Positions 14,738 to 31,618 of a stretch of DNA of 31,618 nt are shown here, piece after piece. The stretch comes from a virus. A program made the translations under genes and the position numbers. How positions within the stretch are numbered: position 1 is the stretch's first letter; each line of letters begins with the position of its first letter. The stretch is from positions 1 through 31,618 of the IMG/VR virus record IMGVR_UViG_3300011116_000253. One strand, given 5' to 3'. The notes below the pieces were generated by a model. It saw nothing but the letters and a program-made list of their open reading frames with translations. It was not told the DNA's origin and ran no database searches.

Positions 14738-15697
14738 ATGGCTTTATCATTTTCAGGTTTGAATGCCTATACTAAAGAGCTTGTTCAACCTTTATTAACT
14801 TCAGCTGTAATCGGAGCAAGAACTCAGCAAATGATTATGGATGGTGGTATTGTATTAACAGGAGTAAAAGGACCAACTGCACTTCCTACAATGGATACTG
14901 ATGCAGTATTTGCTACTCAATCTTGTTCTTTTGATGCTTCCGGCACGACAACTTTTTCAAATGTTGTACTTACTCCGGGCAAGATAAAAGTTGAAGAAAA
15001 AATATGTCCAAAAGATTTGGAAGCTTATTTCACTCAAACTGCATTGAAAGCTGGTTCTACTTACGAAGATTTCGGTAATGCTGATTTCTTAGCTGCTTAC
15101 TTAGAGAAGAAAAATGCTCGTATTGCTGCTCAATTAGAAACTGCAATATGGCAGGGAGATTCTGCAAGTGCAACTGCTAACTTGAATAAATTTAATGGTA
15201 TTCAAAAAGTAATTGCTGCAGGTTCACCGATAAATGCGAATGTATCAGGTTTCACAGGAGTTGCTACAATCACAACTGTAACTTCTTCAAATGTTGTTGC
15301 TGCAACTGAAGGTATCTACAAAGCAATCCCTGCTCAAGTAATGGCTAAAGGTGATGTTAAGATTTGGGTTGGATATGATTGGTATCGTTTGTTGATTTTA
15401 GCTTACAGAGCATTAAACTTGTTCAGCTACAATCCACAAGATGTAAATGCACAATCTTTCATACTTCCAGGCACTAATGTTGAGGTTGTTCCTGTAAATG
15501 GTTTGAATGGTACAGGTGATGCTTATGCAATAAGCTTAGGAAATATGGCTCTTGGACTTGACTTAGAAGCAGAAGAAACTAACTATAAATTTTGGTACAG
15601 CATCGACAACAATGACTGCAGGTTCCGTGCAGAATGGAAGGTCGGAATTGCTATCCCCTTCACTTCTGAGACAGTTAGCTTCTTAGCAGCTATCTAA
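14738..15697 (+). CDS. Major capsid protein (HK97-type inferred)
   Basis: This 319-residue protein opens MALSFSGLNAYTKELVQPLL and shows the mixed helix/strand pattern of a capsid protein, including EEKICPKDLEAYFTQTALK and a helix at KKNARIAAQLETAIWQGD. It has no enzyme motif. Position after the protease and scaffold genes, an A-rich leader (AACTTAAAAAAATGG) and a strong terminator just downstream (15725-15757) all suit an abundant virion protein. The HK97 fold is assumed from phage type and order, not shown by the sequence itself. Confidence 0.85.
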   Translation: MALSFSGLNAYTKELVQPLLTSAVIGARTQQMIMDGGIVLTGVKGPTALPTMDTDAVFATQSCSFDASGTTTFSNVVLTPGKIKVEEKICPKDLEAYFTQTALKAGSTYEDFGNADFLAAYLEKKNARIAAQLETAIWQGDSASATANLNKFNGIQKVIAAGSPINANVSGFTGVATITTVTSSNVVAATEGIYKAIPAQVMAKGDVKIWVGYDWYRLLILAYRALNLFSYNPQDVNAQSFILPGTNVEVVPVNGLNGTGDAYAISLGNMALGLDLEAEETNYKFWYSIDNNDCRFRAEWKVGIAIPFTSETVSFLAAI

Positions 15698-15724
15698 TTA
15701 GTAAATATAAATTAATAATCAAAA

Positions 15725-15757
15725 GGGGTAGGGCTACAAATACCCTATCCCTTTTTT
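15725..15757 (+). terminator. Intrinsic terminator after the major capsid gene
   Basis: GGGGTAGGG (15725-15733) pairs with CCCTATCCC (15743-15751) with one G-T wobble over a nine-base loop, followed by six T. The A-rich stretch upstream pairs with the T tract, so it could work on both strands. Confidence 0.88.
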
Positions 15758-15770
15758 AAATCTAAATATT

Positions 15771-16310
15771 ATGCCTTGTGCTTTGTCAGCCGGATATGCA
15801 ATAGATTGCAAAGAGTCGGTAGGTGGAATAGAAACCATCTATGTAATAGAAAATTCAGCATTATATGATGCTTCAGGTAATTCAAGAGTTACTTCAGCTT
15901 CAGGAACAGTTACTGCTCTAACAAAATCAACTGGTAAAAGATTCTACAAAATAGAAATACCAAGAGCAACTGCTTCTGCTAAAAATACTTTAACTGCTTC
16001 AAATGAGAATGGAACTTTGTTCTATACTCACGAAGTAATGTTCCCAATCAATAGCCGTTCAGCTACTGTAAGAAATATCATTAATACACTTGCTAAAAAT
16101 CGTTTAACTTTCGTTTGTGTGGAAGCAGATGGTTCAAGCAGAATGTATGGTGTTGGATATGGTTTGAATATGACTACTGGTGAATCAGGATCAGGTACTG
16201 CTGCAGGAGATCGTTCAGGATATATGATGACTTTTAACTCTAATGAGAGAGAAGATTTCTTAATTGTTCCTGCAAACATAGTAGCAGCTTTAGAAACTCC
16301 AGGTACTTAG
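15771..16310 (+). CDS. Probable major tail tube or abundant virion protein
   Basis: This 179-residue protein begins MPCALSAGYAIDCKESVGGI and is beta-rich throughout, with NGTLFYTHEVMF and a serine/glycine-rich turn before RSGYMMTFNSNERED. Similar openings with two early cysteines are, as I recall, annotated as structural proteins in Bacteroidota phages. Terminators on both sides (15725 and 16335) isolate it as a single-gene unit, which suggests tuned or high expression, as for a tube protein. A head decoration role is the alternative. No promoter was found in the 13 bases before it. Confidence 0.6.
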   Translation: MPCALSAGYAIDCKESVGGIETIYVIENSALYDASGNSRVTSASGTVTALTKSTGKRFYKIEIPRATASAKNTLTASNENGTLFYTHEVMFPINSRSATVRNIINTLAKNRLTFVCVEADGSSRMYGVGYGLNMTTGESGSGTAAGDRSGYMMTFNSNEREDFLIVPANIVAALETPGT

Positions 16311-25055: not shown

Positions 25056-25102
25056 GGATTTTAGATAACTTTGATTTGTGTTTTGATTTAGTTTTGTGAA
25101 CG

Positions 25103-25130
25103 GCCGGGGTTTTTACCCTGGCTTCTTTAT
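25103..25130 (+). terminator. Intrinsic terminator ending the late block
   Basis: GCCGGGG (25103-25109) pairs with CCCTGGC (25116-25122) with one G-T wobble over a six-base TTTTTA loop, followed by TTCTTTAT. It separates the last late gene from the early promoter about 80 bases downstream. Confidence 0.8.
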
Positions 25131-25190
25131 TTATAGTATATACTGATTATCAATGAGTTATGATAAAATGAAAAAATATTTTAAAAAAAG

Positions 25191-25213
25191 TTCTAAATAA
25201 TTTTGTTTTAGAA
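25191..25213. repeat. Inverted repeat around the -33 box of the early promoter (possible operator)
   Basis: TTCTAAA (25191-25197) is the reverse complement of TTTAGAA (25207-25213), with nine bases between. The TTTTG -33 box (25201-25205) lies inside the spacer. A dimeric regulator bound here would block the promoter. No repressor gene was identified in the genome. Confidence 0.45.
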
Positions 25214-25233
25214 ATAAATTCACTTTATATTTG
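25201..25233 (+). promoter_or_regulatory. Bacteroidota-type early promoter
   Basis: TTTG (25202-25205) and TATATTTG (25226-25233) are 20 bases apart and match the Bacteroidota -33/-7 consensus TTTG...TAnnTTTG. AATAAAT precedes the -7 element, as at the other two promoters. Transcription should start near 25240 and cover the small-protein/ERF operon. Confidence 0.75.
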
Positions 25234-27393: not shown

Positions 27394-27604
27394 AGATTTA
27401 AGAAACCATCTATTTGCAACCATTGAAGCTTTGGCTGATAAGGATGAACCAATGGATATAGACAGGGCAAAAGCTATTTCAGATGTAGCTCAAACAATTA
27501 TCAATACTGCAAAGGTTGAAGTGGACTTCCTAAATAAAGTTGGGGGAAATGGAACCGGATTTATTAATGATAAACTTTTAGGAAATGACAAGCAGACAAA
27601 TTAA
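27377..27604 (+). CDS. Conserved-looking small early protein
   Basis: This 75-residue helical protein opens MKNKIEDLRNHLFATIEAL and has DIDRAKAISDVAQTIINTAK followed by VEVDFLNKVGG. I recall this arrangement as a common small protein of Bacteroidota phages, found next to HNH and replication genes, without a known function. It overlaps both neighbours slightly. Confidence 0.6.
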   Translation: MKNKIEDLRNHLFATIEALADKDEPMDIDRAKAISDVAQTIINTAKVEVDFLNKVGGNGTGFINDKLLGNDKQTN

Positions 27605-28043
27605 TTGGTATTCAGAAAAGTACTGCACTCCCTGTTCTGATCATACACTATCACCATCAGTGAACATCTTACAACCGGATGATATCATCTTGAAGGTTTG
27701 CAACTTACTTGGGGTTCCAGTAGGCAAAACATTGGGTACTGATAGACATTCTAACTATGTTGTAGCAAGATATATTATTTCAGATATCCTTTACTCAGAT
27801 AGGATTCTAATAATGTCTTTAAAGCAAATAGGAAGGTTACTTGGGAATAGGGATCATACAACAGTAATGAACTCAATCAGGAATGTATCTAATCGTTGTG
27901 AAACTGATATGGACTTCAGGGAGAAGTATAGGCAGATTCATATTGATTTATATGGTTCAGACATTTACTTCAGATATACCGATAAATATTACCAATTTCA
28001 AAAGATGAAAAAAAGAAAAAAAGTTTTTTTGGTAAGAGAATAA
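27585..28043 (+). CDS. DnaA domain-IV-like DNA-binding protein
   Basis: This 152-residue protein has the DnaA C-terminal signature around GNRDHTTVMNSI (residues 87-98), preceded by SNYVVARYIISDIL and MSLKQIGRLL, which match the helix-turn-helix and basic loop used by DnaA to read its box. The AAA+ ATPase and oligomerisation domains of DnaA are absent. An N-terminal piece with CTPC may be a small metal-binding or flexible segment. It might mark the phage origin for the host replisome, compete with host DnaA, or regulate transcription. It is the last gene before the promoter and structured RNA at 28028. Confidence 0.78.
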   Translation: MTSRQINWYSEKYCTPCSDHTLSPSVNILQPDDIILKVCNLLGVPVGKTLGTDRHSNYVVARYIISDILYSDRILIMSLKQIGRLLGNRDHTTVMNSIRNVSNRCETDMDFREKYRQIHIDLYGSDIYFRYTDKYYQFQKMKKRKKVFLVRE

Positions 28044-28055
28044 ATCTTATATTTG
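28028..28055 (+). promoter_or_regulatory. Promoter of the structured RNA / replication unit
   Basis: TTTG (28028-28031) and TATATTTG (28048-28055) are 16 bases apart. The spacing is a little short for the consensus. AATAAAT (28039-28045) lies one base before TTATATTTG, exactly as at the late promoter. The element overlaps the end of the DnaA-like gene. Confidence 0.65.
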
Positions 28056-28148
28056 GGAACGATTTCGTTTTGAAGTAGAAGCCAAACCGAAATTTTTTAT
28101 TTCAACCTTAAAGGGTTTACATTGCTTCTACCAGTGTAAACCTTTTTT
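28056..28148 (+). ncRNA. Compact structured RNA: leader/attenuator or sRNA with loop-leader complementarity
   Basis: Transcription from the promoter just upstream would give an RNA of about 88 bases. It contains a small hairpin AACG/CGTT (28058-28069), GTAGAAGC (28075-28082), hairpin GAAAT/ATTTC (28089-28103) and the terminator stem at 28114-28142. The 13-base terminator loop contains GCTTCTAC (28124-28131), perfectly complementary to GTAGAAGC upstream. This allows a pseudoknot, or pairing that competes with terminator folding. It precedes the replication genes, so it is a candidate attenuator, antiterminator target or stand-alone sRNA. Confidence 0.6.
28110..28148 (+). terminator. Terminator at the 3' end of the structured RNA
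   Basis: GGTTTACA (28114-28121) and TGTAAACC (28135-28142) form a perfect eight-pair stem with a 13-base loop, followed by six T (28143-28148). The upstream AAAG can extend pairing into the T tract. The first replication gene starts five bases after the T tract, so replication transcripts must read through. Confidence 0.88.
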
Positions 28149-28153
28149 ATTTT

Positions 28154-28351
28154 ATGCCAATAACAAAGTTATTTCAAGATTCAGATTGTGAAAAATCAAT
28201 TGATTGTTATCCTACAAAAGATACAGAAATTTGTTTCAGATTTAGTTTAAATGGTAATTGTGAGTTTACTATTGATTTAGACATTGAAACTGCTGAAGCT
28301 TTAATGGATGAAATTCATTTATCACTTAGTCAATTTAAAGGAGGTAAATAA
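28154..28351 (+). CDS. Small hypothetical protein at the head of the replication unit
   Basis: This 65-residue protein is acidic with strand-like segments (TEICFRFSLNGNCEFTID) and a C-terminal helix (TAEALMDEIHLSLSQFKGG). I recognise no family. A good GGAGG-like stretch near its end (AAAGGAGG) lies just ahead of the next gene's TAATG start, one of the few Shine-Dalgarno-like sites seen. Confidence 0.6.
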   Translation: MPITKLFQDSDCEKSIDCYPTKDTEICFRFSLNGNCEFTIDLDIETAEALMDEIHLSLSQFKGGK

Positions 28352-29145
28352 TGGCATTCATTAAATTAGATAGGGCAATTATTGACTCTTATTGTTTTGC
28401 TAATCCTAATCATTTAAAGGTTTGGTTATGGTTATTAATCAAAGCTAACTTCAAAAAAACTTATGTTCCATTTACTTCAGGAGCAGGTATTACAACTATT
28501 GAGCTTCAAAGAGGTCAGATGATATTTGGTAGGTTTACTGCTGAAGAAGAACTTGATATGAATGGATCAATGATTTATCGTTCATTAAAGAAATTTGAAG
28601 AATTAGAGCAGATAAAAATAGATGCGAACAACAAGTTTAGTATCATAACTATTTGTAACTATGATAGTTATCAAGACAATACTTCTGAAGATGAACAACA
28701 AGTGAACAACAAGCGAACAACAGATGAACAACTGGTGAACACACTTAAAGAAGGTAAAGAAGGTAAAGAAGTATTTAATAATATAATAGGGAAAAAATTT
28801 GTTTTTGAAGATTTTAATGGTTTGCCTAATCATTTAAATAAATCAATAATTGAACAAACTAAAATTACAAAGCAAATAGATGTTACTTCTGACCAAGTCA
28901 ATTCAATGTGGGATGTTTTCAAGCTTCAAAATCTAACAGGAACAAAATTTTATCATAACGAACATTCAGTTTATCAACATTTCGTAAATTGGATTAAAAA
29001 TCAAAATTTCAACAATGGAACAAATAGCAAATCAATTAGCAAATCAACTACAAAAAATCGTACCACAGCAGATGAAAGATTTGAATTCTACACAAACTAT
29101 GCAAGTCAGTTCAGTGATGGAAGCAATGAAATCAAAAAAGATTGA
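28351..29145 (+). CDS. Replisome organiser / replication initiation protein
   Basis: This 264-residue protein starts MAFIKLDRAIIDSYCFANPN, then HLKVWLWLLIKANF and IELQRGQMIFGR, the N-terminal winged-helix pattern of phage replisome organisers. The middle is a charged linker and the C-terminal part is Asn/Ser/Thr/Lys-rich with little structure. Such proteins bind the origin, often within their own gene, and recruit the helicase loader. It follows the upstream gene through TAATG and overlaps the next gene by up to 131 bases. Confidence 0.78.
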   Translation: MAFIKLDRAIIDSYCFANPNHLKVWLWLLIKANFKKTYVPFTSGAGITTIELQRGQMIFGRFTAEEELDMNGSMIYRSLKKFEELEQIKIDANNKFSIITICNYDSYQDNTSEDEQQVNNKRTTDEQLVNTLKEGKEGKEVFNNIIGKKFVFEDFNGLPNHLNKSIIEQTKITKQIDVTSDQVNSMWDVFKLQNLTGTKFYHNEHSVYQHFVNWIKNQNFNNGTNSKSISKSTTKNRTTADERFEFYTNYASQFSDGSNEIKKD

Positions 29146-29839
29146 GGATGCAACTGATCAGGAGCTTGCAGCAAAGTTTGGAATCATTTACTTTATGATT
29201 GGACTTAGGCCACAACACACTCCAAATGTCCAGGAGTCCAAAACTCTATTTGCTTATGTTAGGGCAACATACAAACAAAGAACACTGGATGAATTAGTAC
29301 TGGCATTTAAGAATTATGTTGAAGGAATGTATTGTGAAGATGTCAAGTTTTATGATCAATTTACTTTGCAGAGTTTAAATTCTATTATGAATGGGTATCG
29401 TAAGTACCTGATTGAATTAAATTCTAAACTCAGGGAAGTAAAACCACCGGAACCAATCATCCCAAAAACTGACATTCAAGAAGATATTGAGGAATACCTA
29501 AATAGGACTGATTTAAGCAGAAGAAATTTAGTATTAATACCAACTTACATTTTTGAAAATATGCTTAAATTGGGGTACATTAATCAAACTGAAAAAAGAA
29601 AAGTATCTTTGTACAGGTTGGCTACTGATATGTATGAATCAAAATTAGCTTATGAAGCTAAGGATTTTGACAAGTTTGCAATCGGAAAGCTTAACCGATT
29701 CAGAAAAGAGAAGTCCTATTATTTTGAAAATATAGATGATGTAACTGTTGCCGACATTAAACAACTTTATCAAAAATTATCAGTATTAGATGAAATCCAA
29801 AAGTACCAAAAGCTCAACAAGAAAATCAAAATCAACTGA
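29015..29839 (+). CDS. Probable helicase loader or replication accessory protein
   Basis: This 274-residue protein has a helical middle segment (DQELAAKFGIIYFMIGLRP, RATYKQRTLDELVLAFKNYV) and a charged C-terminal half. No Walker A motif is present, so it is not a DnaC-type ATPase. Position after the organiser gene suggests a lambda P-like or other loader role, by context only. ATG 29015 gives a 131-base overlap with the organiser gene. Later ATGs at 29072, 29099, 29117 and 29126 reduce it, so the start is uncertain. Confidence 0.6.
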   Translation: MEQIANQLANQLQKIVPQQMKDLNSTQTMQVSSVMEAMKSKKIEDATDQELAAKFGIIYFMIGLRPQHTPNVQESKTLFAYVRATYKQRTLDELVLAFKNYVEGMYCEDVKFYDQFTLQSLNSIMNGYRKYLIELNSKLREVKPPEPIIPKTDIQEDIEEYLNRTDLSRRNLVLIPTYIFENMLKLGYINQTEKRKVSLYRLATDMYESKLAYEAKDFDKFAIGKLNRFRKEKSYYFENIDDVTVADIKQLYQKLSVLDEIQKYQKLNKKIKIN

Positions 29840-31355: not shown

Positions 31356-31618
31356 GTGAAAGCTTGCAGGAAATATATTGAATCAATGTATATGAATCCA
31401 AAGGTAACTGAGTTACTGAGTAAGATTAAGCCGGTTGAACTCCAGGATGATTTAAGGCAAGAACTTGCAATGGTACTTTTAAACTATAACTGCAAAAAGA
31501 TAATAGAACTGAACCGAGAGGGAAACCTGCTCGGTTTTACTTTGAGGATACTTTGGAAGATGGGAACCGGCACAAAGGGTGAGTTCTTTAAGAAATACAA
31601 AAGAGCAGACATTATTGA
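31356..31618 (+). CDS. RNA polymerase sigma-factor-like protein (5' part, continues at window start)
   Basis: Starting at GTG 31356 the frame reads MKACRKYIESMYMNPKVTEL, then the region-2-like segment, and runs off the window end in frame. Because 31492-31618 equals 1-127, it continues at position 128 to 389. ATG 31386 or 31392 are alternative starts. The GTG is preferred because the N-terminal helix is then complete and the promoter lies 22 bases upstream. It is the first gene of the late block. Confidence 0.68.
   Translation, partial: MKACRKYIESMYMNPKVTELLSKIKPVELQDDLRQELAMVLLNYNCKKIIELNREGNLLGFTLRILWKMGTGTKGEFFKKYKRADII
31492..31618. repeat. Terminal overlap, right copy
   Basis: These 127 bases equal bases 1-127 of the window. 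They show that the contig is circular and that the sigma-like gene is intact across the junction. Confidence 0.95.

Follow-up and report, generated by a model that had tools for sequence, protein, structure and literature searches.

The window analysed here, a phage record of 31,618 bases, carries a 127-bp direct terminal repeat (positions 1-127 and 31492-31618) and for that reason probably represents a complete genome of ~31.5 kb. Its recognised genes all lie on the plus strand, and neither an integrase nor a CI-like repressor was found among the window ORFs searched. The element that is our subject sits in a 110-nt gap between a plus-strand gene (27585-28043) whose product contains the C-terminal (domain IV) DNA-binding domain of DnaA (PF08299, E = 1.5e-13) and a replication operon on the same strand. 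The latter opens with an ORF of 65 aa (28154-28351) that matches no family, followed by a gene for a DnaD-like helicase loader or O-like replication protein (28351-29145; phrog_2514, E = 2.5e-25), presumed to be the controlled gene, and it also encodes NinG (at 29790). An earlier note on this DNA had the replication genes begin five bases after the element. An ORF does start 5 nt downstream, but it is the 65-aa frame, with the DnaD-like loader coming next.

The product of the upstream neighbour, 27585-28043, is a lone DnaA domain IV (Bac_DnaA_C), without an ATPase domain, encoded beside the replication operon. Many members of the family described below have a relative of this protein upstream of the element. 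Scanning genomes with the DnaA-like protein gave matches that look like ordinary dnaA genes.

Two hairpins with complementary loops

The plus strand carries a -7 promoter element of Bacteroidota type, TATATTTG, at 28048-28055. In Flavobacterium psychrophilum TAnnTTTG occupies positions -12 to -5 (PMC9723704) and, when this rule is applied to TATATTTG, a transcription start at about 28060 is predicted. The MFE structure folded from 28060 consists of exactly two hairpins, both with open loops. The first, H1 (28061-28094, plus strand, like all the features that follow), has 11 bp, including one U-C mismatch, and a 10-nt loop, AA-GUAGAAG-C, within which the strand GUAGAAG (28075-28081) is here called K1. 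A single-stranded linker (28095-28109), seen in alignments as well as folds, leads to H2 (28110-28146), a terminator-like hairpin with 15 bp, a loop of exactly 7 nt and a U-tail. The whole of this loop, CUUCUAC (28125-28131), is the second kissing strand, K2. The U-tract and the U-rich spacer that reaches the start codon (28142-28153) overlap the end of the H2 stem, and H2 is the sole terminator-like hairpin between 26.5 and 30.5 kb of the window. The MFE structure of 28056-28148 contains a different 5' hairpin, which was dropped given the start at 28060 and the fold of the relatives; it missed H1 because four bases upstream of the likely start had been included.

The earlier note held that the terminator loop shields an exact complement of the 5' leader and that their pairing would make a pseudoknot. 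The exact complementarity is confirmed, GTAGAAGC at 28075-28082 matching GCTTCTAC at 28124-28131. The complement is indeed present in the H2 loop, but the loop proper is a 7-mer, not an 8-mer: H2 is closed by G28124, so that the loop reads CUUCUAC and the kissing helix has 7 bp rather than 8. Likewise, the pairing proposed as a pseudoknot is maintained in relatives, but its topology is otherwise, the 5' copy also being held in a hairpin loop, that of H1. K1:K2 joins two hairpins through their loops in a kissing interaction, and is not a simple or classical pseudoknot.

Several controls show how often such an arrangement is to be expected by chance. The element scores 67.5, and the runner-up among two-hairpin loop-loop sites on the plus strand of the full 31.6-kb window scores 40; kissing scores on the minus strand are the mirror of the same inverted repeats and were discounted. 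Of 171 replication-gene loci, 32 have a two-hairpin kissing site with a score of at least 40 within 160 nt upstream, compared with 1 of 513 shuffled sequences. Finally, a promoter-anchored scan of 1.95 Mb yielded 44 candidates, where a dinucleotide shuffle of the same size yielded 0. One of the 44, L005, looks like a chance occurrence and was rejected.

Conservation and variation in relatives

Relatives were collected from viral contigs with the helicase loader, DNA patterns and neighbouring proteins as queries. This produced around 45 distinct relatives in uncultured phage contigs, located at the head of a replication operon or just upstream of it. The 45 elements tabulated carry 23 different K1 words, to which later scans added three, making 26, and K1 and K2 are exactly complementary in all the relatives counted. 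For each pair of relatives listed, K1 and K2 show equal numbers of differences. Since pairing is kept through 26 different loop sequences, we take this to be a real RNA element, and there is strong support for the suggestion of the earlier note that a new RNA element heads the replication genes.

Covariation in relatives had been put forward as a check on the pairing. An alignment of all types made with MAFFT misplaced H2 of one clade, and an alignment of the window's sub-family, A5, was used instead. In A5, 100% of the K1:K2 cells are paired and five of the seven pairs are doubly changed, as are 7 of the 10 modelled pairs of H1. The structure as a whole beats 500 of 500 shuffles in A5, and slid controls come nowhere near it. 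The result is repeated in an independent second sub-architecture, which has a short H1 and an H2 with an outer GCCC/GGGC stem. Here double changes affect four of the seven K1:K2 pairs, and several of these changes are transversions, which cannot pass through G-U. Parsimony on the type-1 tree places 24 changes in K1 and 24 in K2; per column the loops undergo 3.4 changes compared with 1.9-3.0 in other parts, so that they change at least as often. A covariance model, R1, built from the nested hairpins only and with the kissing pairs left out, recovered three new members (L338, L273 and L259), all of which have complementary loops. Equally, MFE folds to which the kissing was not supplied leave K2 open in 42 of 43 elements and K1 in 34 of 43.

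An 8-base complement is possible by chance in a single sequence, and it might be supposed that the window contains an ordinary terminator along with a fortuitous complement in the leader. The mirrored loop changes and all of the covariation results refute this reading, to which we attach next to no probability. The two-hairpin kissing structure is near certain. As far as comparison of the sequences goes, the evidence establishes two hairpins, their kissing pairing, the position of H1 near the predicted +1 and the element's place at the start of the operon; function we infer.

Members of the family share a layout of TAnnTTTG-type promoter, H1, linker, H2, U-rich stretch and start codon. The H1 loop consists of two bases, N7 and one base, or else of about seven bases, and the H2 loop of about seven. 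Three types of replication protein follow the element, namely DnaD/O-like, Lin1244_N and a 'KDPAFLFY' type, and in some phages the element is found a few hundred bases farther upstream of the replication gene. The linker of the window's sub-family has a conserved AUUUC, and in the clade of L010 a mini-hairpin takes the place of part of the linker. This mini-hairpin, UUUAGA-GAAA-UCUAAA, is conserved and has a GNRA loop; it is seen in L010 (2704-2801), L009 and L002 and is possibly a further tertiary contact.

Transcription start, strand and termination

Nearly all relatives have TAnnTTTG, or alternatively TATATTCG or TATnTTTA, at a distance of 8-26 nt upstream of K1, and TATATTTG at 28048-28055 is among few such sites in the intergenic gaps of the window. 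The arrangement is that of Bacteroidota sigma-A, TAnnTTTG ending 5 nt before the start, with the motif present and the start itself predicted. The prediction of the start from the promoter is independent of the folds and, in the MFE folds of 43 elements, the first paired base falls at a median of +3 from it. Predicted leader lengths range across members from 73 to 106 nt, with a median of 95. The 88-base RNA predicted earlier fits the predicted start at 28060 and the end of the terminator. As the earlier note had also maintained, no separate promoter for the replication genes was found, TATATTTG at 28048-28055 driving the element itself. Shine-Dalgarno motifs are scarce (3 of 39 genes) and, taken with the type of promoter, this suggests that the phages with the element probably infect Bacteroidota.

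A further gap in the window, of 175 nt at 25056-25233, contains several TAnnTTTG-like sites, a GC-rich terminator-like hairpin (25102-25123) and a copy of TATATTTG at about 25226-25233. It is probably a second transcription start, one without a kissing element.

The oppositions in H2 across the family comprise 39 G-U against 4 A-C, which indicates a plus-strand RNA; those in H1 (15 G-U and 20 A-C) are neutral as to strand. The figures for H2 bear on whether the inverted repeats could act at the level of DNA, as a replication origin or as sites for the upstream DnaA-domain protein. The location between a DnaA domain IV gene and a helicase loader would suit such a role, and the inverted repeats score on the minus strand too. 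Nevertheless, the 39:4 ratio favours plus-strand RNA, the promoter stands at a fixed place relative to H1, and the sequence of the 7-mers is free to vary, as that of a protein site would not be. We therefore consider a DNA-level element very improbable.

A stem leading directly into a U-tract, as in intrinsic terminators, is present in the window and in most members but not in the clade of L373 and L404. In this sub-clade (L373, L389, L404, L408 and L413) the U-tract is broken directly after H2, with the fold retained. Termination may thus be lost or weak in this sub-clade, and so may not be universal in the family. In the 15 bases preceding the AUG (-15 to -1) the elements contain 63% T and 14% A, compared with 29% T and 54% A for other genes of the window. 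Given this difference between a U-rich spacer and the A-rich regions in the phage's other genes, the U-tract looks like the tail of a terminator rather than a ribosome site.

These observations also bear on a purely structural 5' UTR, which would protect the replication mRNA or set its translation without regulated termination. A hairpin at about +1 stabilises bacterial mRNAs, and H1 begins there; in members the start codon follows shortly after H2, and the clade with the broken U-tract keeps the fold. A stable hairpin would, however, suffice for protection, with no need of exact complementarity between loops, and a U-rich spacer is at odds with the A-rich sequence at which translation otherwise starts in this phage. 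In our view a role of this kind is unlikely.

Elsewhere in the window, a strong hairpin followed by a T-run (15698-15770) fills the gap between a gene ending at 15697 and another starting at 15771. It is likely to be an ordinary terminator.

Possible function and comparison with known systems

The reading that we favour, with a probability of roughly 55%, is that the element is a cis-acting kissing-loop leader RNA, an attenuator of the phage replication operon, which would probably control the timing of replication-gene transcription. A host-type promoter would start the RNA at H1, after which RNA polymerase would make H2, the predicted intrinsic terminator that immediately precedes the first start codon. 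On emerging, the K2 loop of H2 would pair with K1 in the preformed H1 loop, and the resulting complex of H1, kiss and H2 would make up the whole leader. H2 would terminate part of the transcription, giving an RNA of ~90 nt with hairpins at both ends, and the kissing contact would set the amount of readthrough into the replication genes. Our guess, at somewhat better than even odds, is that kissing would hinder termination rather than promote it, since the stems by themselves form a strong terminator, and such strict conservation is hardly to be expected of a contact that did no more than strengthen it. The element sequences show no conserved alternative antiterminator helix, so that the switching step is invisible in them.

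This appears to be a recurrent regulatory RNA in phages probably infecting Bacteroidota, whose phages have been little studied as to the control of their genes. Its study would help to show what effect tertiary contacts in nascent RNA have on intrinsic termination. The element is readily testable, as every loop change can be compensated, and the 26 loop words found in nature offer a collection of variants that may prove orthogonal to one another.

Covariation alone does not tell pairing in cis from pairing in trans. The terminated RNA of ~90 nt could itself be the real product, a trans-acting, self-recognising RNA with the loop word as its identity code. Its loops would pair with the leaders of other copies and shut the replication operon, effecting copy-number control or superinfection exclusion after the manner of the phage P4 CI RNA or of plasmid antisense control. 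An RNA structured from about +1 to the terminator is consistent with this, as are loop words which diversify yet stay self-complementary. So too is the comparison of L010 with L252, which differ in four of seven loop pairs and in one other aligned base of the element, the 600 nt upstream being 94.8% identical. That case is, however, a single lineage, while other pairs keep their word over large divergence, the window and L015 for example sharing the same loop word despite ~66% identity upstream, and for these reasons diversifying selection is not claimed. Moreover, cis pairing has a large advantage in concentration and would mask both loops. The lack of a recognised integrase or CI-like repressor among the window ORFs searched also counts against a trans-acting RNA and makes lysogenic immunity unlikely. 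Overall, we consider action in trans unlikely. We would be similarly hesitant about a word-specific lock, in which pairing within a leader as against between leaders would sense the number of genomes, or exclude co-infecting relatives with the same word, and so control entry into the replication operon.

Searches with Rfam 15 gave no match above the gathering threshold for the window and 18 relatives, with only chance-level matches under an E of 5, and the C4 antisense RNA model (RF01695) matched neither the window nor these relatives. No such motif is described in the open-licence literature searched, where absence is not proof, or in two survey papers (PMC2864571, PMC8040213). The element is apparently undescribed and would constitute a new RNA family and, pending experiment, a new variant of leader attenuators.

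Among known systems, RNA I/RNA II of ColE1 and CopA/CopT of R1 are linked to replication and kiss through small complementary loops, of 7 nt in ColE1, with words that differ between compatibility groups. The element resembles them in its fully complementary small loops (7 nt in K1 and K2), varying words and link to replication. In contrast to these systems, where two RNAs come from opposite strands and the regulator is made from the strand opposite its target, both partners here are plus-strand loops of one leader, and one of them is the loop of a terminator. The P4 CI RNA and the C4 RNA of P1 and P7 are small leader RNAs of phage operons, complementary to a later part of the transcript and linked to termination, and the element shares with them its small size, its place in the leader, a complement later in the same transcript and, as predicted, termination before the downstream genes. 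C4, however, pairs with sites beyond itself, whereas the partner here is inside the element's own terminator loop, and the present phage differs further in having no recognised lysogeny genes and the element in having no Rfam match. The put RNA of HK022 is likewise part of an early phage leader and has two hairpins, but it works through RNA polymerase, which then passes terminators farther along. To our knowledge its loops are not described as kissing and, in contrast to what is predicted for the element, put does not itself terminate transcription ahead of a start codon. Attenuators and riboswitches with terminators share a terminator directly before the first gene, but the element has no visible alternative antiterminator helix or conserved ligand-like core, and its most variable part is the conserved pairing itself. 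We know of no characterised leader in which a hairpin at +1 kisses the loop of an intrinsic terminator.

A blastn search of the region against named phages and plasmids gave no match, and those named-phage relatives of the replication proteins that were examined have either no intergenic room or no element. Among the 10 candidates per genome scored with the RNA model in 395 Bacteroidota genomes there was no member, though so small a number makes this result uninformative. No convincing element was seen beside the chromosomal relatives of the replication proteins examined. Most loci where the replication gene follows close behind another gene have no element there. In L359, L362, L281 and L295 a hairpin, for which no kissing partner was found, is present just before the start codon of the replication gene and is possibly a different type of leader.
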